Both the position numbers and the translations under genes were made by a program. A DNA stretch of 64,000 bases from Spirochaetales bacterium. GTDB taxonomy: Bacteria > Spirochaetota > Spirochaetia > DSM-27196 > Salinispiraceae. Each line of letters opens with the position of its first letter. The first letter of the stretch is position 1. Below, piece by piece: positions 2,972-19,274 of this stretch. The notes under the pieces are model-generated. The model saw nothing but the letters and a program-made list of their open reading frames with translations, was not told the DNA's origin and searched no databases. The stretch lies in assembly GCA_009991955.1 (NCBI GenBank), contig JAACWS010000019.1, positions 1 through 64,000 on the forward strand, written 5' to 3'.

Positions 2972-3864
2972 CTATAACTCATTGGTACGCATTTCTCGGA
3001 GGATGTTCAAGAATCGCCTCATGTCTTTGTCCGTCCCGATACTCACCCGAATAAAATTGTTTATCCGTTCTTTTCCGAAGTGGCGCACGAGTACTCCTTG
3101 TCTTTTGAGTTCATCGTAGAGCACGTTGCCTGGGATAGTCTTCGACGACATACATAAGAAATTCGTGCTAGAGCTCAGGACCTCAAAGCCCAAACGGACG
3201 AGTTCTGTAGACACCCATTCTCGGGTTCTTATAATTTTCTTTCGGGTCTTTTCGAAGTACCCTACGTCACTCATGGCGGCGTTAGCTCCAATTATCGCCA
3301 GTCTGTCAACGGTACACAGGAATCACCACCGAAATCGAAATAGGCTTCATCAATAAGGACGATTTTTTCGATTTCTTTCGATGGAAGTCCGATCGATGTA
3401 GGTGCATTTGGATTCGGAATAACTACTCCACCGTTTCTTAGAAGGTAATCTTCGGGAATTATTTCGAAAGAACTATTCAATGGTACAGATGAATACGGTA
3501 GGTTATATAACTCTGCGTACACCGGGTAAAAACTGTAGGTAATATCGGGAAATAGGATTTGTTCCGTAGGTTCAAAAAAGCATAAAAAAGAAAAGGCGAG
3601 TACCTCGTCCGAACCGTTGCCGATGAACACATTTTCTGGGTTCAGTTGAAAGTGTTTCGAAATAGTTTCTCGCAGAACTCGACAAGTTGGATCAGGATAC
3701 AGTCTAAGGTTCGAGTTAACGGCCTTCTTCATCGCCTTTCGAACCTTTGGCGAAGGCGGAAACGGATTCTCGTTCGTATTGAGCTTGATAAACTTCCTAT
3801 CTAAAGGTTGCTCGCCTGGTATATATGGCCGAATACTCCTCAGATGGGTATTCCAGTATCTCAC
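2972..3864 (-). pseudogene. hisC: hisC remnant, histidinol-phosphate aminotransferase with deletions
   Basis: The GTG at 3864, 12 nt after AGGAGG, begins a typical HisC N-terminus (YWN, RPYIPGEQP, KLNTNENPFPPSP, LYPDPT, FIGNGSDEVL, ending VLIDEAYFDF at about 3340). The reading then stops at 3292 after VPLTDW. The C-terminal third (AIIGANAAMSDVGYF, then FEVLPS-like, LVRHFGKERI, NFIRVSIGT) continues in another frame from about 3298 to 2972. About 50-60 residues that normally lie between are absent, including the PLP-binding lysine segment SFSK. A second gap of about 8 residues precedes VLIDEAY. No active aminotransferase could be made. No other his genes are near. The segment follows msrB and may be co-transcribed with it. 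Confidence 0.8.
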
Positions 3865-3918
3865 GGTGTCGGAAAACCTCCTATTTTCGCTCCTACTACT
3901 TCGAATGAGCAAGGCTGA

Positions 3919-5381: not shown

Positions 5382-6881
5382 CTATTTTTCTTCCAAGGGC
5401 AAGGTGAAATAGAACTCGCTTCCTCCCGACTGTTCACTTCGCGCTCCAATCTTGCCACCATGAAGTTCTACAATTCTTTGGGCTATAGCAAGGCCAAGTC
5501 CGGTTCTAACCGAACCTCGCTTTGTGCCTTCGGTGTAGTACCGCTGGAAAACGTTTGCCTGCTGCTCTTTGGTAAGTCCGGGTCCTTGATCGGTTATTGA
5601 CACCTGGACCATGGGGCGATCAATACTGACCTCTACCAAAACCACCTGGACCGTTGTCCCCGGAAAGGTATATCGAAGAGCATTTTCCAGTAGATTTGTT
5701 ATGGTCCGTTCAATGAGTGATATGTCGGCCCGAACAACGAAGAGATCTGCCGGTGGTTCCAAGACGATTGATACGTCCCTTTTTTTTGCTTCCAAAGAAA
5801 ATTGCATTACTAGGTCATGACCCAACTCAGCGAGCGAAAAACTCTCGGGCCTTAGGGCGGAATCGGCGTTTTCGAGTCGAGACAATTCAAACAATTCTCC
5901 AACTAACCGACCAAGGGCTTCGGCCGACGAAAGGGAGGTCCGTAAATACTCCCGGCGTTCTGATGGTGAGAGTACTTCGTCCTTCTGAAGGACTGTTTCG
6001 ATGTACCCTCGAATTGTAGAGAGAGGTGTTCTTAGATCGTGGGAGATGTTTGCGACCAAGTCCCGGCGTTCTCGTTCGACTTTGGCTAGGGACTGGACAC
6101 TTGAGGCGATTTGGTCCGCCATCAAGTTGAAACTATCCGATAACTCTCCTACCTCGTCTCGAGATCTGGTGGTAACTCGAACGTCGTACTGCCCTGTGCC
6201 GAATGCCCGAACCGTCGCAGTTAGACGTCTGAGCCGAAGGGTCAGAAGAAAAAAGAGCAGAAGTCCGAGGATCGCTACCAGTGGGATACTCAAAAACAGG
6301 CTCTCCCGGAAGGCATTCTGAAAATACTGGTCTTCGATCTCGGTTCGGGCGGTATCGTAAACACTGCTTTTCAACACTACGTAGAGAAAACCACTGCCAT
6401 TTCCTATCCCGGACAACCGCGCGGCAGAGAAAGTAGTGGGCTGGTTAGGCCGACGAGGATCATCACCATAAATTGGTAACATTCGGTCGTTGGAAAGAAA
6501 GGCGAATACCGGATCGAGATTTATTCGCTCTAGTTGCACTTCTTCGGGAGTGTCGGCGAAATATCCAAGAATAGTACCTTCCGCCGATACTAGGTATATT
6601 TCGATGAGGGGATTAAGAACCATCATGTAGTGGATCGCCGATCCAAGGGCGTCAGAGTATACCCCCATGGACTGACCAAGGGGCGAAAGGTAGGGTTCGA
6701 TTTCGCTGGCCATATCGGCTGCCAGCATTGTGTTGGCCCGTTGATCGATTTCCGCTCTTTTTCGTTCGAACGCATTGGCGGCGATTTGAGCTTGGAGAAC
6801 CGCCAGGAGCAGTATCAAGGTTAAGAATATCAGCGAAAGCCGCACATAGAAGCTCGACAAAAAAGGTACCCGGCCAATCAT
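5382..6881 (-). CDS. Sensor histidine kinase, HAMP-HisKA-HATPase type
   Basis: Membrane histidine kinase of 499 residues. A TM segment (about 11-33), a periplasmic sensor region of roughly 150 residues and a second TM (about 193-215) precede a HAMP linker, the phospho-accepting His in NISHDLRTPLSTIRGY (about residue 277), the N box (NLLENALRYTF), DQGPGLT and the GLGLAIAQRIVELHGG G box. The overall plan matches PhoR/BaeS kinases. The start overlaps the stop of the regulator gene by ATGA, so the pair is translationally coupled. The genes that follow encode an exported MsrA/MsrB pair, so redox or envelope damage is a reasonable signal, but this is inference. Confidence 0.92.
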   Translation of the reverse strand: MIGRVPFLSSFYVRLSLIFLTLILLLAVLQAQIAANAFERKRAEIDQRANTMLAADMASEIEPYLSPLGQSMGVYSDALGSAIHYMMVLNPLIEIYLVSAEGTILGYFADTPEEVQLERINLDPVFAFLSNDRMLPIYGDDPRRPNQPTTFSAARLSGIGNGSGFLYVVLKSSVYDTARTEIEDQYFQNAFRESLFLSIPLVAILGLLLFFLLTLRLRRLTATVRAFGTGQYDVRVTTRSRDEVGELSDSFNLMADQIASSVQSLAKVERERRDLVANISHDLRTPLSTIRGYIETVLQKDEVLSPSERREYLRTSLSSAEALGRLVGELFELSRLENADSALRPESFSLAELGHDLVMQFSLEAKKRDVSIVLEPPADLFVVRADISLIERTITNLLENALRYTFPGTTVQVVLVEVSIDRPMVQVSITDQGPGLTKEQQANVFQRYYTEGTKRGSVRTGLGLAIAQRIVELHGGKIGARSEQSGGSEFYFTLPLEEK

Positions 6882-7597
6882 GATTCACCACCGAACAGTC
6901 GATATCCAAATCCCCAGACCGTTTCGATAAGTTGTGGGTGGGTCGGATCTTTCTCGAGTTTTGCCCGAAGTCGATTTATGTGGCTGTTGACCGTGTGGCT
7001 GTATCCTTCGTATTGGTAGCCCCACACCTGTTCAAGCAGGTCCGATCGACTGAAGGCCTGGCCTGGCTTCTCGGCCAAGACCTGGAGGAGTTTGAACTCC
7101 TTCGCCGTAAGATTTTCCGTTCTTCCGTCTATAATCGCCTCCCGCCGGCCAAAATCGATGGTTAACGGTCCAATGGTTCGAATCTTTTCGATGGGCCCAA
7201 CGTATTCATGCCGGTCAGTTGATCGACGCAGGAGTGCCCGAATCCGAGCGATGAGTTCGAGGACACCAAAGGGTTTGGTTAGATAATCGTCGGCTCCGTT
7301 TTCGAGTCCTACAATTTTGTCGAGCTCTGAAGACCGGGCGGTCAGCATAAGAATAGGAACCAAAATATTCCGATCCCTCATTCGACGACAGATCGAAAGA
7401 CCATCCAAGCCGGGCAACATAATATCGAGGATAACCAAGTCGCACTCTTCGGCTGCCACTAGGACTGTATCTTCGTCCCCCTGAGAAATCACCCTCGAAT
7501 CGTATCCATGATCGGTAAGATGTAATCGGATGAGGTTCACGATTGTAAGATCATCTTCAACAATGAGTATCATTGGTGGACGGTCACTAAATGTCAT
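6878..7597 (-). CDS. OmpR-family response regulator
   Basis: Winged-helix response regulator of 239 residues. The receiver domain has the acidic pair (ILIVEDD), the phospho-Asp in LVILDIMLPGLDG, the conserved Thr-Ala (MLTARSS) and Lys (YLTKPFG). The C-terminal domain is a Trans_Reg_C winged helix (LTAKEFKLLQVLAEKPG, SRSDLLEQVWG, VNSHINRLRAKLE, VWGFGYRL). It pairs with the kinase encoded directly after it. The ATG at 7597 was chosen over a TTG two codons upstream; an internal ATG before ILIVEDD at 7573 is also possible. No Shine-Dalgarno sequence is evident, but TAGTAT lies about 10 nt upstream of the ATG. Confidence 0.93.
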   Translation of the reverse strand: MTFSDRPPMILIVEDDLTIVNLIRLHLTDHGYDSRVISQGDEDTVLVAAEECDLVILDIMLPGLDGLSICRRMRDRNILVPILMLTARSSELDKIVGLENGADDYLTKPFGVLELIARIRALLRRSTDRHEYVGPIEKIRTIGPLTIDFGRREAIIDGRTENLTAKEFKLLQVLAEKPGQAFSRSDLLEQVWGYQYEGYSHTVNSHINRLRAKLEKDPTHPQLIETVWGFGYRLFGGES

Positions 7598-8459
7598 GAG
7601 CAAAAGATACTACAATCCGAAGATTAGTTCCGAACGTTCACCAGAAAACTGTTAGTCATACATACTTGGAAAGCCCGTCGCCATTTTGTTAGTATGTCAA
7701 GCCCACAGGAAAAAGGTATCTTTGCTTATAACTCCTGCCGCCGGACTTAAGAGTGTTTTCAACGGTTTCATCCAACGGTCATTCTATTATTTTGCCAAAA
7801 TATCCTTTGTTTCGGTAAAAACCTACCCTTGCTGAGCAGGTTTGGTGATTCGACAGGAAGAGACTATTGTATTTTTCGATTTTCAACGACGAAGTTGGTA
7901 TGGACTCAACCGACTCGATTTCCCATTTTAGGGACGGGGGCATGGGATGGATCGACCTCGGAGGACGAATAGTTAGGAAGGAGTTTAGTAATCTGAACGG
8001 CAGCAAGATAGTTCAAGCCGCAGAATTACTACAAGAGAACATCCTGAAGGTTCCAAATACATTTTTCAAAAGGATGAAGCTAATCGATACGGTCTGTTCA
8101 CAGCTCTGAGTCGCTCTGCCCGCGTATCGATTGATATGAATTACCAAAGCACTTCGGATATTCGGGCGTCCTTCCTGGGTATTATGCAGGAGCCAAAAGG
8201 CACCCTATTTGTCAAAAAATCCATTCAGGGGATCTTCTTGGAGAGCGCCCCTGACACCGCCCCCGGCCCTTTGTTCCAAGGAATGTTGTGATTAAGCTGC
8301 ATAGCAACGGCGGGGTTTATTAGGTAATGATACCTGGTAAAGAGTATTACCAACGGTGCGGTAAAAGGGTAGGAGGCTATCTGACCGATGGGGCTTTTAT
8401 GGGTGTACTCCTTCGGTCGCAAACCCCACAAGATCATTGTGTACCAAGTCCATGAACCT
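7598..8459. other. Gene-poor stretch, about 860 bases
   Basis: No recognisable gene, RNA or repeat was found here. Two weak plus-strand open frames exist. One (7867-8109) starts with TTG and encodes 80 residues without any motif I know. The other (about 8136-8288, roughly 50 residues) begins STSDIRASFL, like the first residues of alanyl-tRNA synthetase, and then loses all resemblance. Neither has a ribosome binding site. The stretch may be decayed sequence together with the upstream regions of the two-component system and the FGE gene tail. Confidence 0.4.
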
Positions 8460-10363: not shown

Positions 10364-12835
10364 CTATCTAACGCTGGTAGGACGCCCCTGTCTTCCTAAG
10401 GCCTTCAAAAAAGCGTCCACCACCTCGGGATCGAAATATTTCCCCTTCCCATTCACCAGTTCAGAAATTGCCCTGGGTTTTTCCAAGGCCTTTCTATACG
10501 GTCGGTCCTCAATCATTGCATGCCAAGCATCGGCCACCGCAATAATACGGGCGGTCTGGGGAATCTCGGTACCTCTCAGTCCTCGGGGGTAGCCACTTCC
10601 ATCGAAGTGCTCCTGGTGAGAAAGGACAATTTCGGCCACGTCCTTGAAGGAATCAAACCCCGACAAAAGTTGAGCCCCGAATTCGGCGTGTCTTTTCATA
10701 GTCTCCCACTCCTCGTCGGTCAAAGGACCTTCTTTGAGTAGAATTCGATCGGGGACACCAATTTTTCCTACATCGTGCAGAAGTAGCGAGTTCCTAAATA
10801 CCTCATCGACTGACAGGCCCATTTCGGCGGCGATCATAGTTCCATAGGCGAGCACGTCGTTAGAGTGGTCGGCGGTATAGTGATCCCGAAGATCAAGGGA
10901 GCGGGAAAAACCTACCGCTAGTTCGCGCATCTGGTGTTCTAGTTCTTTTGCTCGTAAGGTTGCCTCTTGAAAAAGACTCCGGGTTACCAGGTTACGAATC
11001 CGGGCGTCGAGTTCCCTAATATTTATAGGCTTTGCCAAATAGTCGTCGGCGCCTTCTTCGAGACCGTGGATTCGTTCATCCAATTCAGATTTTGCCGTTG
11101 TAAGTATAACCGGAGTACTTTGGAACTGAGCATCGGCCTGTATGCGACTTAGTAATTCGTAGCCGTCCATCCGGGGCATCATTATATCTGAAACAACAAC
11201 TTCTGGATTGAAGCTTGCGACTTTTTCCCAACCCTCTTGTCCGTCGATAGCTGTCTCGACTTGGTATCCTGCTTTGGTCAACATACGGTAAACATACGAA
11301 CGGAGGTCGGTATTATCTTCCACATACAAGACTCGAGAACCCTTCGCTTCGGCTGGGAGTTCAGGAGAACCTTCATTGGAAGTGAGGAGCGAAGAATCTA
11401 TAAACACCAAGTCGTCTATTTCGATTCGGGCTAGATCGTACCCTCGCCGCGGACCATTACGCCGTTCTGGGCCGGTGTATGGGGCCTGGTCGTTTCGCCG
11501 ATGATACTGCCGCCGATCTTCACCGCGTCGTTTACTTTTGGCGTCGGGTATTCGTTTATCGAGGTTCATTGGGAGCCGGACCGTAAAGGTCGTTCCGCGA
11601 CCAAGCTCACTCGCTACTTCGATTGTTCCGTGCTGAATCTCAACTGCTTCCTTTACGATCGTAAGCCCTAGGCCAGTCCCTTCGTATCGGCGAGTACTTG
11701 AGCTGTCGACCTGTTGAAAGCGCTCGAAGATAGTCGAAAGCCGGTCTTGAGGTATACCGATTCCCGTATCGGCTACCGAAATGACAACCTGTGAACCTTC
11801 AGGGGCAATAGTCAGAGAAATACCACCGGACTCGGTGAACTTAATTGCGTTTCGGACGAGATTCGTCAAGATTCGATCGACCTTCTCCCTATCAAGGTAC
11901 ATTAGGGGAAGATCCACACTTTCAAACTTCAAATATAATGTTTTTCGAGCCGCTACTTCTCGAAAGGCGGTAACTGTCTCGTATACTGTTTTCTCTAGGT
12001 CTACTTCGGCCAGATTTACCTGCATTTTTTTCGCATCGTAGCGAGCGAAATCGAGCATCTGATTGATCATGTCTAAAAGTCGCAAGGTATTCCTGTAAAC
12101 CTGGGAAAGGAGCTCCTTTTGCTCGGAAGTAATTTCTCCTACATCACCTTGGTAAATGCTTTGTACTGGGCCAATGATTGAGGTTAGGGGAGTTCGCACT
12201 TCATGGCTTACATTTGCAAAAAACTGAGATTTTAGAACGTCAAGATGTTTGAGGTCTTCGTTGGCCGTAGCAAGTTCATGGCGGGCAGCGTATTCCCGAA
12301 TCCGTAGTCTGGTATGCATATACGAACTTAGGATGGATAGGATAATGGTCGCCAAAAGAAACGCATTGTTGTTGATAAAAACGGACCACTCAGTAATCTG
12401 TCCCCGGTACAGAATCGGTATCAAATAGCTTGCGTAGATAACACCACATATTACGCCCGCTCGAAGATGGTCCATAGGTAGGATTGCTAGGAATACGATG
12501 AGAATTACATTGATTCCAGCGTAATAGGGGCTCAGGTACCCCTCCGAGAAATGAATCATAAGGACCACAGAAAGGGCGGTGACAATATATTGAATTGTTC
12601 CTATTTCTTGCCCGAAACCTCGGACAAGAGGTAAATAGGTAATAAAAAATAGAACTAGGCTAATGAATACCACGCCGAGTCTCAGAGAAAAGAAGGTAAA
12701 AAAATAATCGGGATATACGGCCAAATCTAGAGGCGAAAAAAGCATTATCGCAATTGCGGCAAATACCGCGGCGATACGACTATTCCCCAAGGCCCGTACC
12801 TTTTGTTCTTTCTGGAATCCCTCCTGCATAGTCAT
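10364..12835 (-). CDS. Hybrid histidine kinase with receiver and HD-GYP phosphodiesterase domains
   Basis: An 823-residue signalling protein. Five to six TM helices occupy about residues 20-175. HisKA has its His near 211 in ANVSHEVRTPLTS. HATPase follows (NLVRNAIKFTES, DTGIGIP, GTGLGLTIVKEAVE), then an Arg-rich linker, a receiver domain with phospho-Asp near 550 (VVVSDIMMPRMDGY) and a C-terminal HD-GYP domain (LLLHDVGKIGVP near 685, HFDGSGYPRGL near 745, ADAWHAM). HD-GYP domains hydrolyse cyclic di-GMP, so this kinase probably controls c-di-GMP directly through its own receiver. The ATG at 12835 has GGAGG 8 nt upstream and follows the radical SAM stop by 4 nt. It ends the operon whose first gene encodes PilZ domains, closing a possible loop. 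Confidence 0.92.
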   Translation of the reverse strand: MTMQEGFQKEQKVRALGNSRIAAVFAAIAIMLFSPLDLAVYPDYFFTFFSLRLGVVFISLVLFFITYLPLVRGFGQEIGTIQYIVTALSVVLMIHFSEGYLSPYYAGINVILIVFLAILPMDHLRAGVICGVIYASYLIPILYRGQITEWSVFINNNAFLLATIILSILSSYMHTRLRIREYAARHELATANEDLKHLDVLKSQFFANVSHEVRTPLTSIIGPVQSIYQGDVGEITSEQKELLSQVYRNTLRLLDMINQMLDFARYDAKKMQVNLAEVDLEKTVYETVTAFREVAARKTLYLKFESVDLPLMYLDREKVDRILTNLVRNAIKFTESGGISLTIAPEGSQVVISVADTGIGIPQDRLSTIFERFQQVDSSSTRRYEGTGLGLTIVKEAVEIQHGTIEVASELGRGTTFTVRLPMNLDKRIPDAKSKRRGEDRRQYHRRNDQAPYTGPERRNGPRRGYDLARIEIDDLVFIDSSLLTSNEGSPELPAEAKGSRVLYVEDNTDLRSYVYRMLTKAGYQVETAIDGQEGWEKVASFNPEVVVSDIMMPRMDGYELLSRIQADAQFQSTPVILTTAKSELDERIHGLEEGADDYLAKPINIRELDARIRNLVTRSLFQEATLRAKELEHQMRELAVGFSRSLDLRDHYTADHSNDVLAYGTMIAAEMGLSVDEVFRNSLLLHDVGKIGVPDRILLKEGPLTDEEWETMKRHAEFGAQLLSGFDSFKDVAEIVLSHQEHFDGSGYPRGLRGTEIPQTARIIAVADAWHAMIEDRPYRKALEKPRAISELVNGKGKYFDPEVVDAFLKALGRQGRPTSVR

Positions 12836-12839
12836 GGTC

Positions 12840-14153
12840 TCAACCTCCGACCAATTGTCTAAATGCATTCTTGAAATACGCGGCCCGAGAACGGAGTTGC
12901 TCCTCGGAATATACCGACCGGTAAATCCGAAGTAAGCCTTCCTCCATTTCTTGGGCACTTAGGTGAGGGTGGGTAATGACACAATTCCACGCAGTGTATA
13001 AACGCCAGTCGCTGGATACAATTCGCCGGGCCTCTTCGAGTCGGTTTCGCAAAACACTTCCTGGAAAAGGGGTAAGAATAGTCACCTGGGTGCCCATAAT
13101 AGAATTAGCATTGGAGAAGTCAGCTATTTCGTCGAACACTGTGGTGGTGTCTTCTTCCATTCCAACGATAAACGATCCGTAGACCCCAATCCCGGCCCCC
13201 TGGATTGCGGCGATAGATTCGGGATACCTCTCTAACCGTCGGGCCTTCCATTGGTTTTGGTTAATTGTCGCTAAATTTTCGTGATTAACACTCTCAAATC
13301 CCACAAAAAGGATTCGAAGGCCATTTCGATGGAGTCGAGTAAGTAAATCCGGATGTTCGGCCAAGGATATATCGCTTTGGGCATACCAGGTGAAGGGAAT
13401 ATCCTCGAACTGGTCCAGAAGGTTATGGACCCACTTTTTATTGACGAACATGTTATCGTCGGCGAATCCAACCTGGGCGTGTTTCCATATTTTCTTGACC
13501 TCAACAATTTCCCGGGCTACCTGATCGGCATCCTTGTGCCGATAGGCTGCCCCGTAAATACGGGTCGCTGCACAAAAATCGCAGTCTAGAGGACACCCCC
13601 GGGTCGCCTGAACCCAAACCACTGGATAATTATTGGCGGCCACCAGGTCATAACGTGGCAGAGGAATGGTAGACAAATTGATGTCAGGATAGTTCTTTTG
13701 GTCGTAACGGTGGAGAGGTTTGCCACCTTCAAAATCCGCCAAGAATTGCGGCCATGTGTTTTCCGCTTCTCCAGTGAGAACGGTATCAACATGCTCCAAA
13801 GCCTCAACTGGAAGCACGGTAGCGTGAATTCCGCCCATAGCTACATAGACCCCCCGTCGACGAAATTCATCGGCGATTTCGTAAGCTCGAGGGGCTTGTT
13901 GAGTCATCCCCGTAAGCCCGACCAGATCTACCGGGGCGGAAAAATCGATGGTTTCGTAGTTCTCGTCACAAATGGAAACTATGTGACGATCGGGGGTCAG
14001 ACCCGCTACGGTTGGAAGGGCAGCTCCCAGCCCATTCCAATAGTGCAGAATTGTCTTCATCTCCCGGGAACCTTCCATATAGGTTCGAAACTCGTCGTTC
14101 CGACTCAGAAATGCCCCACCCGGGGAAATCAGCAAGATCTTAAGATTAGCCAT
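12840..14153 (-). CDS. Cobalamin-dependent-type radical SAM enzyme
   Basis: A 437-residue protein with an N-terminal Rossmann-like B12-binding-type domain (residues about 1-150: KILLISPGGAFL, VGLTGMTQQAPRAYEIADEF, VAMGGIHATVLPVEAL, VDTVLTGEAENTWP) and a radical SAM barrel with the [4Fe-4S] motif Cys-x3-Cys-x2-Cys in ATRGCPLDCDFCAA (about 180-195). The classic DxHxxG cobalamin motif is not apparent, as in many members of this class. Such enzymes methylate, cyclise or rearrange unreactive carbons, often on lipid or natural-product intermediates. ATG at 14153 overlaps the ACP stop by 8 nt. The ACP, AMP ligase and methyltransferase neighbours suggest an acyl-ACP or acyl-derived substrate; this is inference. 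Confidence 0.88.
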   Translation of the reverse strand: MANLKILLISPGGAFLSRNDEFRTYMEGSREMKTILHYWNGLGAALPTVAGLTPDRHIVSICDENYETIDFSAPVDLVGLTGMTQQAPRAYEIADEFRRRGVYVAMGGIHATVLPVEALEHVDTVLTGEAENTWPQFLADFEGGKPLHRYDQKNYPDINLSTIPLPRYDLVAANNYPVVWVQATRGCPLDCDFCAATRIYGAAYRHKDADQVAREIVEVKKIWKHAQVGFADDNMFVNKKWVHNLLDQFEDIPFTWYAQSDISLAEHPDLLTRLHRNGLRILFVGFESVNHENLATINQNQWKARRLERYPESIAAIQGAGIGVYGSFIVGMEEDTTTVFDEIADFSNANSIMGTQVTILTPFPGSVLRNRLEEARRIVSSDWRLYTAWNCVITHPHLSAQEMEEGLLRIYRSVYSEEQLRSRAAYFKNAFRQLVGG

Positions 14154-14397
14154 GGGACTTCCGAATACGGGCTTCGACAAACTGGGAGAATTCTCCAACC
14201 GTTTGAATATCGAACATTTCTGTTTCGTCAATTTCTATTGAAAACTCCCGCTCCAGGGTTGCTACAATCTCCATAGCCATTAGGCTGTCGATACCCAACT
14301 CTTCCCGAATGAGTACATCGTCGGCAAATTCCGACTTCGGAATTCGCGAGATTCGCGATACTACGGATTCGATCTTCTCTCTGCTTGGATTGTCCAA
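14146..14397 (-). CDS. Acyl carrier protein
   Basis: An 83-residue carrier protein. The phosphopantetheine attachment Ser lies in LGIDSLMAMEIVATLE (about residue 38), within the four-helix ACP pattern, and the C-terminal half is acidic (EIDETEMFDIQTVGEF). It is distinct from a housekeeping acpP context, since no fatty acid synthesis gene is adjacent. It sits between an AMP ligase, which could load an acyl group onto it, and a radical SAM enzyme, which could modify that group. The ATG is 10 nt after the ligase stop, and the 3' end overlaps the next gene, so the set is tightly coupled. Confidence 0.92.
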   Translation of the reverse strand: MDNPSREKIESVVSRISRIPKSEFADDVLIREELGIDSLMAMEIVATLEREFSIEIDETEMFDIQTVGEFSQFVEARIRKSHG

Positions 14398-14407
14398 TAT
14401 CCTCTCC

Positions 14408-15805
14408 CTAGGCCCGCCTTATCTTCCGCGGTATTTTGTAGGCGGCTATCTGGTGTTTTAGAACCTCTTGTACCCGCATTTCCTCGCTCTCAATATCGAC
14501 CGCTAAAGGTGTTTCCAAAAGTGCAACTATCGAATATCCTTCAATAATAACTCGGGCATCCCGGGCTACCGTGGCCGAGAGGACTGCAGACCGAACCTCC
14601 TCTAGGTCGACGATAACCCCATTCATTTTGTAGGTATTCTTGGTTTCCCAATCGAATACTAAGTGGTCTTGGTCGAAGTGCCCCAGGTCGCCGGTATGAA
14701 ACCACCCATCCCGGATTGCAAGAAAGGTTTCTTCGGGTCGGTTGTAGTATCCGCCGAACATCGACTCACTTTGTACGAGAATTTCTCCCCGTCCATGGTC
14801 ATCGGGGTTGGCAATTTTGACCTCTACTCCGTCACATACACGTCCAACGGTTCCGGCACGGGACTCTCCCCGGCTATTCCGCGCTATCGGGGTAAACTCC
14901 GTAAGGCCGTAGCCGTGTAGCACCTCAACTGAAAAGGCCTTAGAAAGTTCATCATACTCTTCGATTTCTAGCCGGCTTCCGCCGGAAACAAAGGTCAAGA
15001 GGCTCGAGAACTTCTGCCCCTCTTTTACCGACCGTAGCAGCAGACGATACACCTCGGGGACGGCGGTTACATGGTTAACGCCCAATGTTTCGAATGAAGA
15101 CAAAATAACCCGGGGATGGATTGTGGTCGCCAGTATGCCCGTAAGTCCGTACAACAAAGGGGTGAACAGGCAGCCGACAAGGGTAAAAATATGACTGAGT
15201 GGAAGGGGGTACAAGAGCGACTCCCCAGGTGTGGACTGCAATCCCGCCTGGAGCACTTTCGCACCGTGGAGATACTGTTTTTCGAGGGCGAGACTGCCGA
15301 CCAGAGTCCCTGTTCCCCGGTAAGTGCAGTTAATCGACACCCACTGGTCGGAAATACCCGAAGTCTTGGAAGTACTCGAAGTCGGATTCACAACCGTAAA
15401 ACGCCCCGTCCCTTCGCGAACGAGAAGTCCACGGCCGGAGGCAAACGGTGAAAGCATGGGTACAAACGAAGATTCTGCAATAACCGCCCCCGGACTAAGG
15501 TCCCGGAAAATAGTTGTGAGTTCTATGAACCGATACTCTTTTTTTGCGAAGACCGGAACCGCCCGAAGATAGATAAGGGCAAGAATTACCACTACAAAAT
15601 CGATAGAATTGGACAGAAAAAGCGCGACTACCGTATCCCTATCTATTCCTCCTTGCCGGAGAATAGTTGTCATTGATCGGATCCGGAACTGAAGATCTTC
15701 CGGTCCAACCGATACAATCTCACCCCGCGGTCCGAGCTCGGTCAGCACGGGATTGGTTCCCCACCGACCCAGACTCTCTTCTATGCGGCGGGTTAGTTCA
15801 GACAT
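14408..15805 (-). CDS. Acyl-AMP ligase of the ANL superfamily, C-terminally short
   Basis: A 465-residue adenylate-forming enzyme. ANL landmarks seen: PLPLSHIFTLVGCLFTPLLYG, VSGGSRLEIEEY, the A5 motif HGYGLTEFTP, A7 in WFHTGDLGHFD, and an A8-like YKMNGVIVDLEEVRSAV. The usual TSGTTGxPK phosphate loop reads TYRGTGTLVGS, and the protein ends at AAYKIPRKIRRA, just where the A10 lysine segment should follow. It therefore looks as if 10-20 residues are missing or fused. It could load the neighbouring ACP, but reduced adenylation activity is possible. The ATG at 15805 overlaps the preceding stop by 8 nt and has AAAGGT upstream. Confidence 0.85.
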   Translation of the reverse strand: MSELTRRIEESLGRWGTNPVLTELGPRGEIVSVGPEDLQFRIRSMTTILRQGGIDRDTVVALFLSNSIDFVVVILALIYLRAVPVFAKKEYRFIELTTIFRDLSPGAVIAESSFVPMLSPFASGRGLLVREGTGRFTVVNPTSSTSKTSGISDQWVSINCTYRGTGTLVGSLALEKQYLHGAKVLQAGLQSTPGESLLYPLPLSHIFTLVGCLFTPLLYGLTGILATTIHPRVILSSFETLGVNHVTAVPEVYRLLLRSVKEGQKFSSLLTFVSGGSRLEIEEYDELSKAFSVEVLHGYGLTEFTPIARNSRGESRAGTVGRVCDGVEVKIANPDDHGRGEILVQSESMFGGYYNRPEETFLAIRDGWFHTGDLGHFDQDHLVFDWETKNTYKMNGVIVDLEEVRSAVLSATVARDARVIIEGYSIVALLETPLAVDIESEEMRVQEVLKHQIAAYKIPRKIRRA

Positions 15806-18800
15806 ACCTTTGCCATACCGGGGGCGGATTTCCTGTTGCGGTGCCACTGGCGATATACGCCTGGGCAGGAGTTCCAAGGGAACGAGTCACTTGAATATCT
15901 TGGAAACCCGCATTCTTGAGGAGCAGATAGAGGTCTTCTTCGGAATAAAAGCGGAAGTATCCGTCTTCTTCGAGTTCTAGTAGTCGCGCCGCTTCGTTGA
16001 GCATCGATCGGGCAGCGGTTAACTGTCCATCTTGCCGTTCTGCGCCATTCAGGTGCTCGATATATTTGGTAAAAATCTTCGAAACGTCGCTGTCCGGTCG
16101 CATCGAAGACAGCACAATCCGACCACCAGACTTTAATCTGCTATGAAATTCTGCCAGCAGGTAATCGGGATTCAATATGTACGAGATGAAGAGACTCGCA
16201 ATTAGCCGGTCGAAAACCTCGGTATGTCCTTCCCCGTCGACAGAGACCGAGATCGGGGCACGTACTCCGACCGGTCCAAAGTTGAGTGTATGAAAGCTGA
16301 TTTCTTCCCACCGAACTTCGCCCCTGAGATATCGAAGGGCAGTGTGTATTTCTTGGGCAATTTCCGGGTTTGAAACGCCGTTTGGAACAGAACCTTCGCC
16401 GCTTTTTAACCATGAAGTCAATTGGGGGGTGGATTTCTGTTCCCAAGTGTCAATTACCCGGTTGGAGAGCCCCTCTATTCTTCCCTTGAGAAAAGTGAGA
16501 GGAACTTGAGGGTTGTCTAAAAAGTCTTTGAGGGGGACTAGGCGACTGGGTTCCAGATCTTGTACCCGGAATGAGAGATCCAGACCTCGAAGGTTAGGAT
16601 ACTCGGCGAGAGTTTCTCGACACTTTTTTTCGGTCCGAGCCAGGGCATCGGGAACCAAATCAACCGCCAGAACCGACGTTGGTATATCCACCGAACCTAT
16701 GGCCTTATGATCAGCCAGAGCAAGAAGGATTTCCCGGGTAAGTAGTCCCGTGCCACATCCCATATCCACAATCATTTGACCCGGACCCACATCGAGCAGT
16801 CGAATTTCGTCGTGTAAAAAGGACCGGAACTCGGTGAGTCGACCATAAAAGTCGTATCCTTCGCTCTCGGCTTTCTCACCTACTAGATAGGAGCGCCAGT
16901 AGGCAGAAACCTCATCGGCGTCGAGGGGTTTGTAGACCGCCTCTCGTTCTTCGGAAATTATTTGCAGTAAAACCGCCCGGGGAACGGTTATTGCCGGATT
17001 AACCGAACCTACTAACCCGGTGCAGTACTCGGCAATTATTCGAAAAGCTTCGGCCGCGTCCTGACTGCTGCGTAGATTGTGTCCGGCAGGGATCCTAATT
17101 AGCTCCCGGGAAGCGCCGCTATCAACTGACATTATGTCTTCGACCTCTTTTGGGTCCACCCAGTGATCGTATTCTCCAAGAATCCATAGGACCGGTATCT
17201 TTATTCGCGATAGATCAAACCGGGCGTCGGTCAAGAAGGCATATTTTTCATCTATGAGGTCTTGGGCTAGTTGATCCATATCCACGAAGTGCCCAAGCAT
17301 CCCCCGAACCCCATTTTTCAGACCCGCTTTTGTGTTGGCAATGACGTCGGTTCCAGCCAATACGTTCATAAGGGTAGTTCGGCCGGCCGGGACTCCCATG
17401 AGGCTTACCCAGGCATGGACGCGCTCTCTTTCTATGAGTAGAAGTTTGCGGGCATCGACCGAAGACATGCTCGTAGTAACAAGGATTACCGATGCCGGTT
17501 CGCCAGAGTAGTTCTTGTAGACGAAATCTAACACCGCTTGCATATCCTCAACCCCTTGGGAGGGTCGATAACCTAGCATTTCATAGCCCCGGGAAGGACT
17601 TGGATTCCGATTATAACTTTCCCCGGGTCGATTTATTCCGTCGAATCGCAAAACGATACAACCTTGTCCAATTCGGGCAAAATTGATGCAGAGAGCGGCG
17701 GCAAGAGGCGCAAGAGTTTCCTTTTTCTTTCCAAAGGCAGGAGGAATAATCACTATTACCGGAGATTTGGCATCGCCAACTCGGTTCTCTAATCCGACTA
17801 TTTGTCGCCCTTGTCGATCTAGAAAGGTAATCCGGCGAGTAGGAAAACTCGGCACGGGTTCACGGATCGGTAGCTGACCCGTAGCCTTTCGTTGTTCCCA
17901 CTCTTGGCCAGAAATAATGGTTTCTTTTATTTGCCCACGCCAGATCCCCGCCTCGACACCAACTTGTATTGTGGTTATTCCAATAGAGAAACTAATCTCA
18001 GAAATATGCCGGATTTGTCCAAAAGGGGGCAACTGGAACTCAGAATCCAATGAGTAAGTCACAGGGATACCGGTCTGAATCGGTAGAGAAGTCTGCGTAG
18101 AAATGGTAAATTCCGCAAGGAAACCACGCCAGCTCACATCGACCAGTGTACCTACCAGCCCAATGTTTTCCGAATCTTCCCCATAATAGAGGGTGACTTT
18201 TGTGTTTTTCGGTACCAGTTGGCGCCCAACAGAACGATTGTCGGTTTGATATATTTGTTTCGGCAAGGCTACGGTAAGTTCGGTCTTTGAGTGAGGTTGA
18301 GAATGGAATTCGAGAATCGTCGAGGAAAAATAATGAATGCTTCCGTCAAGGGTAAAACTGACAAACACCGAGTCATCGGCTTTGACAGTTACTAAACCAT
18401 CGACTACAAGACCAAACTTCGTACTATCGTCGGGTTTTTTCTCTGTCCGTATCGAACCATTGTATACTTCAGTTGTACCTTCGACCAAAATATAGACCGG
18501 GCTATTTCGTTGGGCCCTTAATAATCTGAAAGAGGCGGCTGCATCTAACCAATAACCACCATCGTCGGAACCTTTTATAGCTTGGCGTATCGAGGCTAAG
18601 GACTGGGACGCTACCATCTTTTCTATGTAGGCGGATATTCGCGCGCGATTCACCGCAGATACTTCCCTGAACCGAACACCGATACGACTTCGCCTGTGGG
18701 GGTCTTTCACACAGTAGGCTACGACCGAATCAAACCGAAGAGCCCTTTCATCACCGGGGAGGATGAATTCAACTACCAGGTCTGTACCTGAGGGAGTTTC

Positions 18801-19274
18801 CCCATTTGCTATAAGGAGTAAACCTTCGGGGGTCAAGTTCTCGATTGTAACATTAGTAAGGTACCGATCGGTTTTTGCCTCGATAGAGCAGTCCAAACGA
18901 GGAACACGGCGAGACTCCGCATCGTCCGCATTTTCGCTAATGTGGCGCTTTTTGGTTTCGTGAATATAGTTTTCTATTAGACGCAACTGCTGATCTGTAC
19001 TGTGCAGGAACTCAAAGGCATAAATGTGCTGTTTTGATCCGTCTTCGTTTGCGCCTCGTCGGGCAATCCGAACCGGTACCTTAATTTCCGAAGAAATTTC
19101 TGGTAACGAAAATCTGATTATTTCCACCCGTTCGAATGACTGGGGAATAGCAACCTTTACCTGTATTCCATTACGGCTCAGATCTATTGAGACCCCTTCT
19201 ACCGTAGTTCCCGCTCCATCAAACCAGACAACGTCTTCGTGCACAATTCGAGTGTGCCGACGTTTTTCGGACAT
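15798..19274 (-). CDS. Triple PilZ - LuxD-like acyl hydrolase - methyltransferase fusion
   Basis: A 1158-residue protein without signal peptide or TM segments. Three PilZ modules each keep the c-di-GMP motifs: RxxxR at 5-9 with DLSRNG at 31-36; RxxxR at 122-126 with NLTPEG at 146-151; RxxxR at 347-351 with DVSWRG at 379-384. The third is preceded by a YcgR-N-like domain (about 245-345). Residues 480-755 form an alpha/beta hydrolase resembling LuxD acyltransferase/thioesterase, with nucleophile elbow SMSS near 604, Asp near 703 (GEYDHW) and His near 732 (PAGHNL). Residues 800-1150 hold a class I SAM methyltransferase (DMGCGTG near 837). ATG at 19274 was preferred to an upstream TTG. It leads an overlapping operon. 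Confidence 0.85.
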   Translation of the reverse strand: MSEKRRHTRIVHEDVVWFDGAGTTVEGVSIDLSRNGIQVKVAIPQSFERVEIIRFSLPEISSEIKVPVRIARRGANEDGSKQHIYAFEFLHSTDQQLRLIENYIHETKKRHISENADDAESRRVPRLDCSIEAKTDRYLTNVTIENLTPEGLLLIANGETPSGTDLVVEFILPGDERALRFDSVVAYCVKDPHRRSRIGVRFREVSAVNRARISAYIEKMVASQSLASIRQAIKGSDDGGYWLDAAASFRLLRAQRNSPVYILVEGTTEVYNGSIRTEKKPDDSTKFGLVVDGLVTVKADDSVFVSFTLDGSIHYFSSTILEFHSQPHSKTELTVALPKQIYQTDNRSVGRQLVPKNTKVTLYYGEDSENIGLVGTLVDVSWRGFLAEFTISTQTSLPIQTGIPVTYSLDSEFQLPPFGQIRHISEISFSIGITTIQVGVEAGIWRGQIKETIISGQEWEQRKATGQLPIREPVPSFPTRRITFLDRQGRQIVGLENRVGDAKSPVIVIIPPAFGKKKETLAPLAAALCINFARIGQGCIVLRFDGINRPGESYNRNPSPSRGYEMLGYRPSQGVEDMQAVLDFVYKNYSGEPASVILVTTSMSSVDARKLLLIERERVHAWVSLMGVPAGRTTLMNVLAGTDVIANTKAGLKNGVRGMLGHFVDMDQLAQDLIDEKYAFLTDARFDLSRIKIPVLWILGEYDHWVDPKEVEDIMSVDSGASRELIRIPAGHNLRSSQDAAEAFRIIAEYCTGLVGSVNPAITVPRAVLLQIISEEREAVYKPLDADEVSAYWRSYLVGEKAESEGYDFYGRLTEFRSFLHDEIRLLDVGPGQMIVDMGCGTGLLTREILLALADHKAIGSVDIPTSVLAVDLVPDALARTEKKCRETLAEYPNLRGLDLSFRVQDLEPSRLVPLKDFLDNPQVPLTFLKGRIEGLSNRVIDTWEQKSTPQLTSWLKSGEGSVPNGVSNPEIAQEIHTALRYLRGEVRWEEISFHTLNFGPVGVRAPISVSVDGEGHTEVFDRLIASLFISYILNPDYLLAEFHSRLKSGGRIVLSSMRPDSDVSKIFTKYIEHLNGAERQDGQLTAARSMLNEAARLLELEEDGYFRFYSEEDLYLLLKNAGFQDIQVTRSLGTPAQAYIASGTATGNPPPVWQRYV

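Follow-up and report, generated by a model that had tools for sequence, protein, structure and literature searches.

A conserved spirochaete operon joining PilZ domains, acyl chemistry and a PhcS-type sensor kinase: a proposed lipid-signal circuit coupled to cyclic di-GMP

We analysed a stretch of 64,000 nucleotides (positions 1 to 64,000 of contig JAACWS010000019.1, hereafter the window) from an uncultured spirochaete, a metagenome-assembled genome (MAG) of the Spirochaetota available as a draft of 2.4 Mb in 90 contigs (G000). The subject of this work is a five-gene operon on the minus strand at positions 10364-19274, which an initial annotation made from the letters alone had described as joining cyclic di-GMP (c-di-GMP) binding, acyl activation, an acyl carrier protein (ACP) and radical S-adenosylmethionine (SAM) chemistry. 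The five open reading frames were confirmed at this place with the domains named there, in the order PilZx3/LuxD-like/methyltransferase fusion, AMP-ligase-fold protein, ACP, B12-binding radical SAM protein and kinase-REC-HD-GYP protein. The calls for the fusion, the ACP, the radical SAM protein and the kinase stood as made, while the putative acyl-AMP ligase has the fold of such enzymes without their adenylation motifs. The genes and their domains, all on the minus strand, are the following.

15798-19274, minus strand: fusion of three PilZ units, a LuxD-like thioesterase and a class I SAM methyltransferase, 1158 amino acids (aa) (Pfam, alignments, AlphaFold2 and Foldseek)
18930-19268, minus strand: PilZ unit 1 of the fusion, RRHTR ... 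DLSRNG (Pfam PF07238, 3e-20; motif kept over 24 homologues)
18570-18917, minus strand: PilZ unit 2, RRVPR ... ENLTPEG (TIGR02266 match, residues 144-231)
17910-18557, minus strand: PilZ unit 3, YcgR-like PilZN plus PilZ, RSVGR ... DVSWRG (Pfam in homologues, profile match)
17010-17843, minus strand: LuxD-like acyl-ACP thioesterase domain, triad S602, D703, H732 (Foldseek, PF02273 in homologues, alignment)
15825-16967, minus strand: class I SAM-dependent methyltransferase domain carrying an inserted helical stretch of about 100 residues (Pfam Methyltransf_23; model m863a800a6dd6 and PDB matches)
14408-15805, minus strand: ANL-superfamily (AMP-ligase fold) protein without P-loop and A10 lysine (Pfam AMP-binding, 1.6e-38; alignment)
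14146-14397, minus strand: ACP, phosphopantetheine site S38 in GIDSL (Pfam PP-binding, 2.3e-15; conserved in 21 loci)
12840-14153, minus strand: B12-binding radical SAM protein, CPLDCDFC (Pfam; alignment)
10364-12835, minus strand: hybrid kinase with six-helix sensor, HisKA, HATPase, REC and HD-GYP (Pfam; alignment)
12221-12835, minus strand: six-helix PhcS-type membrane sensor of the kinase (hhalign, hydropathy, blastp)
10421-10900, minus strand: HD-GYP phosphodiesterase domain of the kinase, HDVGK ... HQEHFDGSGYP (Pfam HD_5, 2.6e-37; motifs checked across homologues)

Gene starts were refined from the alignment of homologues, which placed the ATG of the fusion gene at 19274, that of the ligase-like gene at 15805 (overlapping the fusion gene by 8 nucleotides, nt), the TTG of the ACP gene at 14397 (after a gap of 10 nt), the ATG of the radical SAM gene at 14153 (an 8-nt overlap with the ACP gene) and that of the kinase gene at 12835 (after a gap of 4 nt). 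The tight packing of the five genes described in the initial annotation was thus borne out. Scans for promoters and terminators gave results at chance level only.

Homologous loci were sought in 61 related genomes and in 84,980 prokaryote species. This search yielded 33 loci, almost all of them from spirochaetes, and the relatives that carry the operon are named as Spirochaetaceae, Spirochaetales or Spirochaetes MAGs. In each of the 18 database loci with a long enough contig, the ACP and kinase genes come after those for the fusion and the ligase-like protein; shorter loci, which end at contig ends, were left out of this count. Gene order is constant across loci save in L064, where the ACP and radical SAM genes are swapped. 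The co-occurrence that the initial annotation had proposed to look for by a gene-neighbourhood search is therefore strong, and the recurrence of gene set and order in many divergent loci argues that the operon is not a product of chance. The radical SAM gene, previously taken as a fixed part of the set, is missing between the ACP and kinase genes in six loci (L074, L078, L079, L080, L087 and L094) spread over several branches, and hence is an optional and not a core member.

The distribution of the operon is patchy. The fusion was matched in 19 of the 61 relatives (18 clear cases and a marginal one), the operon was present in 5 of the 393 genomes in a sample of the phylum, and the genes that flank it vary from locus to locus. 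Two contigs labelled Desulfobacteraceae (L070 and L073, both from MAGs) carry copies nested inside the spirochaete tree, which points to transfer or misbinning. The fusion reading frame is split in L073, and the first PilZ unit seems to be missing in L070.

The N-terminal part of the fusion protein consists of three PilZ units that retain the c-di-GMP motifs RxxxR and [DN]x[ST]xxG in nearly every homologue. Residues R122, R126 and G151 of unit 2 are present in the 22 of 22 homologues having letters there, and R347, R351, S381 and G384 of unit 3 are invariant (24 of 24 homologues). Unit 3 falls below Pfam detection in the window protein, with PilZ recognised in 13 of 22 homologues and PilZNR in three, and its profile matches the YcgR-like protein PP4397 (PDB 3KYF/2GJG, E 0.008). 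These motifs make the three units predicted c-di-GMP receptors.

The rest of the fusion was modelled with AlphaFold2 (residues 465-1158; mean pLDDT, the predicted local distance difference test, of 80.7), such models being predictions. The best PDB match of the model found by Foldseek was LuxD of Vibrio harveyi (1THT; E 4.4e-14, template modelling score 0.78 on the target), a myristoyl-ACP thioesterase. Consistent with this fold, the triad S602, D703 and H732 is invariant in 24 of 24 homologues and correctly placed after the strands, and the LuxD family PF02273 was recognised in 13 of 23 homologues (best 6.7e-8), the window protein itself lying below the Pfam cut-off. The methyltransferase domain retains GCGTG and is, by its model, a generic class I enzyme whose structural neighbours do not define a substrate. 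A hidden Markov model (HMM) of PhcB finds none of the operon fusions save one, at E 1.6e-4. We also considered a methylation/demethylation of the BioC/BioH type, as in biotin synthesis, which was rejected because the BioC and BioH matches are weak (0.0035 and 0.05) and the best fold is LuxD.

The second gene product keeps the ANL fold and the A5 and A7 regions (GYGLTE and TGD). In contrast, the sequence NYTYRGxGYPLGA stands where canonical members have YTSGTTGxPKG, and the A3 phosphate-binding loop (STSGTTGxPKG) is replaced by a TYRGxGYPLG-type sequence in 20 of 20 aligned homologues. The catalytic A10 lysine is missing from all 23 complete homologues, nearly all of which stop at the A9 region, whereas ordinary ligase paralogues of the related genomes keep both P-loop and lysine. 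Owing to the loss of both elements in the homologues compared, the protein is unlikely to adenylate a free acid and is probably not an ordinary adenylating ligase; its conserved position beside the ACP gene suggests a role with acyl-ACP. The proposal that an acyl-AMP ligase starts the route by activating a fatty acid with ATP was thus not upheld. We found nothing relevant on ligases without A10 in the open-access literature. The radical SAM protein has a conserved CxxxCxxC stretch and a B12-binding domain; a function like that of HpnJ in hopanoid synthesis was rejected, the best NCBIfam match, HpnJ, scoring 105 against a cut-off of 578.

The last gene encodes a hybrid kinase in which both the HD and the GYP motif of the output domain are present. 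Searches of Pfam and NCBIfam gave nothing decisive for naming its six-helix sensor. By hhalign, the sensor aligned with that of a phcBSRQ-like kinase from Paraburkholderia with a probability of 98.2 (E 3.7e-14, 189 columns), while two unrelated membrane proteins used as negative controls gave 0.1 and 0.3 percent. At E<1e-77 the sensor was detected in 16 of 18 genomes bearing the fusion, compared with 2 of the 43 genomes that have no fusion (Fisher p 1e-10, a value that treats related genomes as independent although they are not), and the two fusion genomes that lack it are incomplete bins with contigs that reach no further than the ligase gene. A link between acyl chemistry and c-di-GMP through PilZ and HD-GYP domains is supported, but the kinase, formerly seen as serving signal removal only, carries a sensor of the PhcS type.

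Variants of this kinase were also observed. At L117:1429-3165 the same sensor is joined to PAS and HD-GYP, with no kinase domain among the Pfam matches. In a second spirochaete family (L065, L067, L069, L105 and L106) the architecture of the operon kinase is kept with a core of a divergent kinase type (SHELRTPLTLILAPL). A plasmid search with the sensor from one homologue gave no match.

The sensor family recurs beside methyltransferases of the PhcB type. Two genomes of a sister genus that have the sensor and no operon fusion (G005 and G042) carry the kinase gene divergently beside a gene for a fusion with a PhcB-like C-terminal methyltransferase. The G042 kinase branches among those of the operon at moderate support (82/92), a position which suggests that the biosynthetic side may have been exchanged there while the receptor was retained. 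The methyltransferase of these fusions is homologous to one encoded in a Paraburkholderia graminis cluster for a methyltransferase, a kinase and two response regulators, the last of which is a receiver with an unnamed C-terminal part. The phcBSRQ operon as described has the same make-up (Ref. PMC6989110), and the phosphorylated histidine, residue 233 in the cluster kinase, is H230 in PhcS (Ref. PMC11960443). Of 15 additional loci across the phylum that encode the sensor outside the operon, nine have a PhcB-like methyltransferase directly adjacent.

Several arrangements of such genes in Spirochaetota genomes can be recorded here. PhcB-like methyltransferase genes adjoin six-helix PhcS-type kinases in L118, L120, L122-L127 and L130. 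The PhcB-like fusions at L101:3090-4763 and L102:4-1668 have PilZ-like N-terminal stretches (RxxxR, ExSxxG; below Pfam detection) and are divergent from an operon-type kinase with HD-GYP. At L111:1036-2403 a PilZ domain (1.1e-7) is fused to a PhcB-like methyltransferase and adjoins a seven-transmembrane protein that matches the kinase N-terminal family HisKA_7TM.

Taken together, these data lead us to favour, with moderate confidence, the view that the operon encodes a self-contained lipid-signal circuit coupled to c-di-GMP. The dedicated ACP would carry an acyl chain, from which the LuxD-type thioesterase of the fusion would release the acyl group for its methyltransferase to methylate. The outcome would be a small signal of the fatty-acid type, possibly a methyl ester. 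In operons that include it, the B12 radical SAM enzyme would alter the chain further, and the ligase-like protein may handle acyl-ACP without adenylation. The six-helix sensor encoded by the last gene would detect the product in the membrane, and the kinase and receiver of the same protein would set the HD-GYP domain that degrades c-di-GMP. Through its three PilZ units, the fusion enzyme would be subject to feedback from c-di-GMP. We infer that the product is a signal and the ligand of the sensor, as we do its chemistry and the sign of the feedback. Partners needed by the circuit exist in the host, since its genome encodes 14 GGDEF domains and a phosphopantetheinyl transferase. Thioesterase or methyltransferase signal synthases with kinase receptors, as well as HD-GYP output, have experimental precedent in RpfC/RpfG and PhcB/PhcS (Ref. 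PMC7912708).

Several points weigh against this interpretation. The circuit leaves the role of the ligase-like protein unexplained. Sensors of this fold can bind other ligands, weaker matches here being the diguanylate cyclase 8WCN and Pfam MASE8, and the assignment of the Paraburkholderia cluster to phcBSRQ draws on its order of genes, the domains they encode and where the histidine lies. Finally, the methyltransferase of the operon fusion was tried and rejected as a direct homologue of PhcB, as hhalign gave a probability of 64 over only 59 columns around motif I.

A rival explanation is a c-di-GMP-controlled pathway to a metabolite other than a signal, such as a membrane lipid or a pigment, in which the kinase would sense an outside cue (salinity or membrane state) and the HD-GYP domain would lower c-di-GMP, switching the PilZ enzyme. 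The enzyme set fits any acyl product, profile-related B12 radical SAM proteins act in lipid pathways (HpnJ, the best NCBIfam match, is below its cut-off), many of the hosts were sampled from soda lakes and saline sediments, and the ligands of six-helix MASE-type sensors are mostly not established. This explanation would, however, account neither for the recurrent pairing of the sensor family with PhcB-like methyltransferases nor for the retention of the sensor kinase where a single PhcB-like protein replaces the whole biosynthetic set, and we consider it unlikely. The PhcS-type sensor and its relatives paired with PhcB-like methyltransferases make it more likely that the operon makes and senses a lipid signal than that it makes an end-product lipid. 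The acyl-modifying route of the initial annotation keeps its link between acyl chemistry and c-di-GMP, and its ATP-activated start is not supported. In the form first proposed, the ligase would activate a fatty acid with ATP and load the ACP, and processing would give a modified acyl product; the AMP-ligase fold (1.6e-38) and the adjoining ACP gene agree with it. Since all homologues compared carry the substituted loop and the A10 lysine is absent from the 23 that are complete, in contrast to ordinary paralogues of the same genome group, the motif comparison rules out ordinary fatty-acid activation as the leading reading, and we regard that route as very improbable. Still more improbable, in our judgement, is that unrelated genes are held together merely as a mobile or selfish cluster. 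The patchy spread, the differing flanks and the placement of two Desulfobacteraceae MAG contigs inside the spirochaete tree would suit such a cluster, but the overlapping ends of the five genes, their fixed order, the invariant catalytic residues and the dedicated sensor indicate a single function, and neither a transposase nor an integrase was seen within the operon.

Other genes near the operon deserve brief mention. A few kb downstream, at window positions 5382-7603, lies an ordinary pair of a HAMP sensor kinase and an OmpR-type regulator; L079 and L080 have similar pairs just upstream of their operons. A short class I/II aminotransferase-like frame at 3292-3912 (206 aa, covering the first 196 of 361 profile positions) is possibly truncated and adjoins methionine sulfoxide reductase genes.

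No description of such an operon was found in our literature searches, which were limited to open-access papers, in keeping with the earlier remark that no described pathway of this composition is known. Papers bringing PilZ together with LuxD, ACP, radical SAM or spirochaetes yielded nothing relevant; four papers that contain both PhcB and PilZ, neither of them in a title, lie outside this negative result. To our knowledge, the synthase, the receptor and the c-di-GMP enzymes of known lipid signalling systems are all separate proteins, whereas the operon unites synthase with c-di-GMP receptor in one protein and the receptor of the signal with the c-di-GMP phosphodiesterase in a second. Only tentatively do we put forward that this is a new kind of signalling module, in which the synthase would itself be a c-di-GMP receptor and the receptor itself a phosphodiesterase, with an ATP-independent ligase-fold protein acting on a private ACP and an optional radical SAM enzyme creating signal dialects, that is, a spirochaete lipid quorum sensing in which signal and second messenger directly control each other's synthesis. 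If true, it would connect cell-cell signalling with c-di-GMP compactly, by means of two proteins, point to lipid signalling in free-living spirochaetes and provide a ligase-fold family without its former ATP chemistry. Judging by the PhcB-like/PhcS-like pairs in many other genomes of the Spirochaetota, the operon may belong to a larger set of signalling systems that has drawn little notice.

Individual parts of the operon resemble well-known proteins in other settings. LuxD of the luxCDE system is the best structural match of the thioesterase, which shares with it the topology of the triad and a Ser-x-Ser region at the nucleophile, but the operon has neither a LuxC reductase nor LuxE, and its domain is joined to PilZ units and a methyltransferase. 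Like YcgR-type PilZN-PilZ receptors, the third PilZ unit has an N-terminal barrel-like stretch; unlike the flagellar brake YcgR, it sits in an enzyme.

As a whole, the operon comes closest to two systems of fatty-acid signalling. The Phc signals of Ralstonia are methyl 3-hydroxymyristate or 3-hydroxypalmitate. Methyl 3-hydroxy fatty acids are produced by PhcB and perceived by PhcS. RpfF makes DSF (diffusible signal factor) from acyl-ACP by thioesterase action, RpfC/RpfG relaying it to an HD-GYP domain (Ref. PMC7912708). With the Rpf/DSF system (RpfF, RpfB, RpfC, RpfG) the operon would share a fatty-acid signal made from acyl-ACP by a thioesterase-type synthase, and it does share a hybrid membrane kinase receptor with REC-HD-GYP output and an acyl ligase homologue nearby. 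It differs in that its synthase bears PilZ and has a LuxD-like alpha/beta hydrolase fold with a class I methyltransferase instead of the crotonase fold of RpfF, in that the functions of RpfC and RpfG are joined in one polypeptide, and in that no HPt domain is found among the Pfam matches of the kinase. With the Phc system (PhcB/PhcS/PhcR/PhcQ) it shares a SAM methyltransferase encoded together with a membrane sensor kinase, a sensor homologous to that of the phcBSRQ-like kinase and, in the sister genus, the pairing of an operon-type kinase with a PhcB-like methyltransferase. However, the operon methyltransferase is of another subfamily and forms one chain with a thioesterase and three PilZ units, genes for an ACP, a ligase-like and a radical SAM protein are added, and the output is an HD-GYP domain inside the kinase where Phc uses separate response regulators. 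Since its methyltransferase is related to PhcB at the level of the general class only, the operon is not a Phc system; by analogy, we propose that it may work like one.

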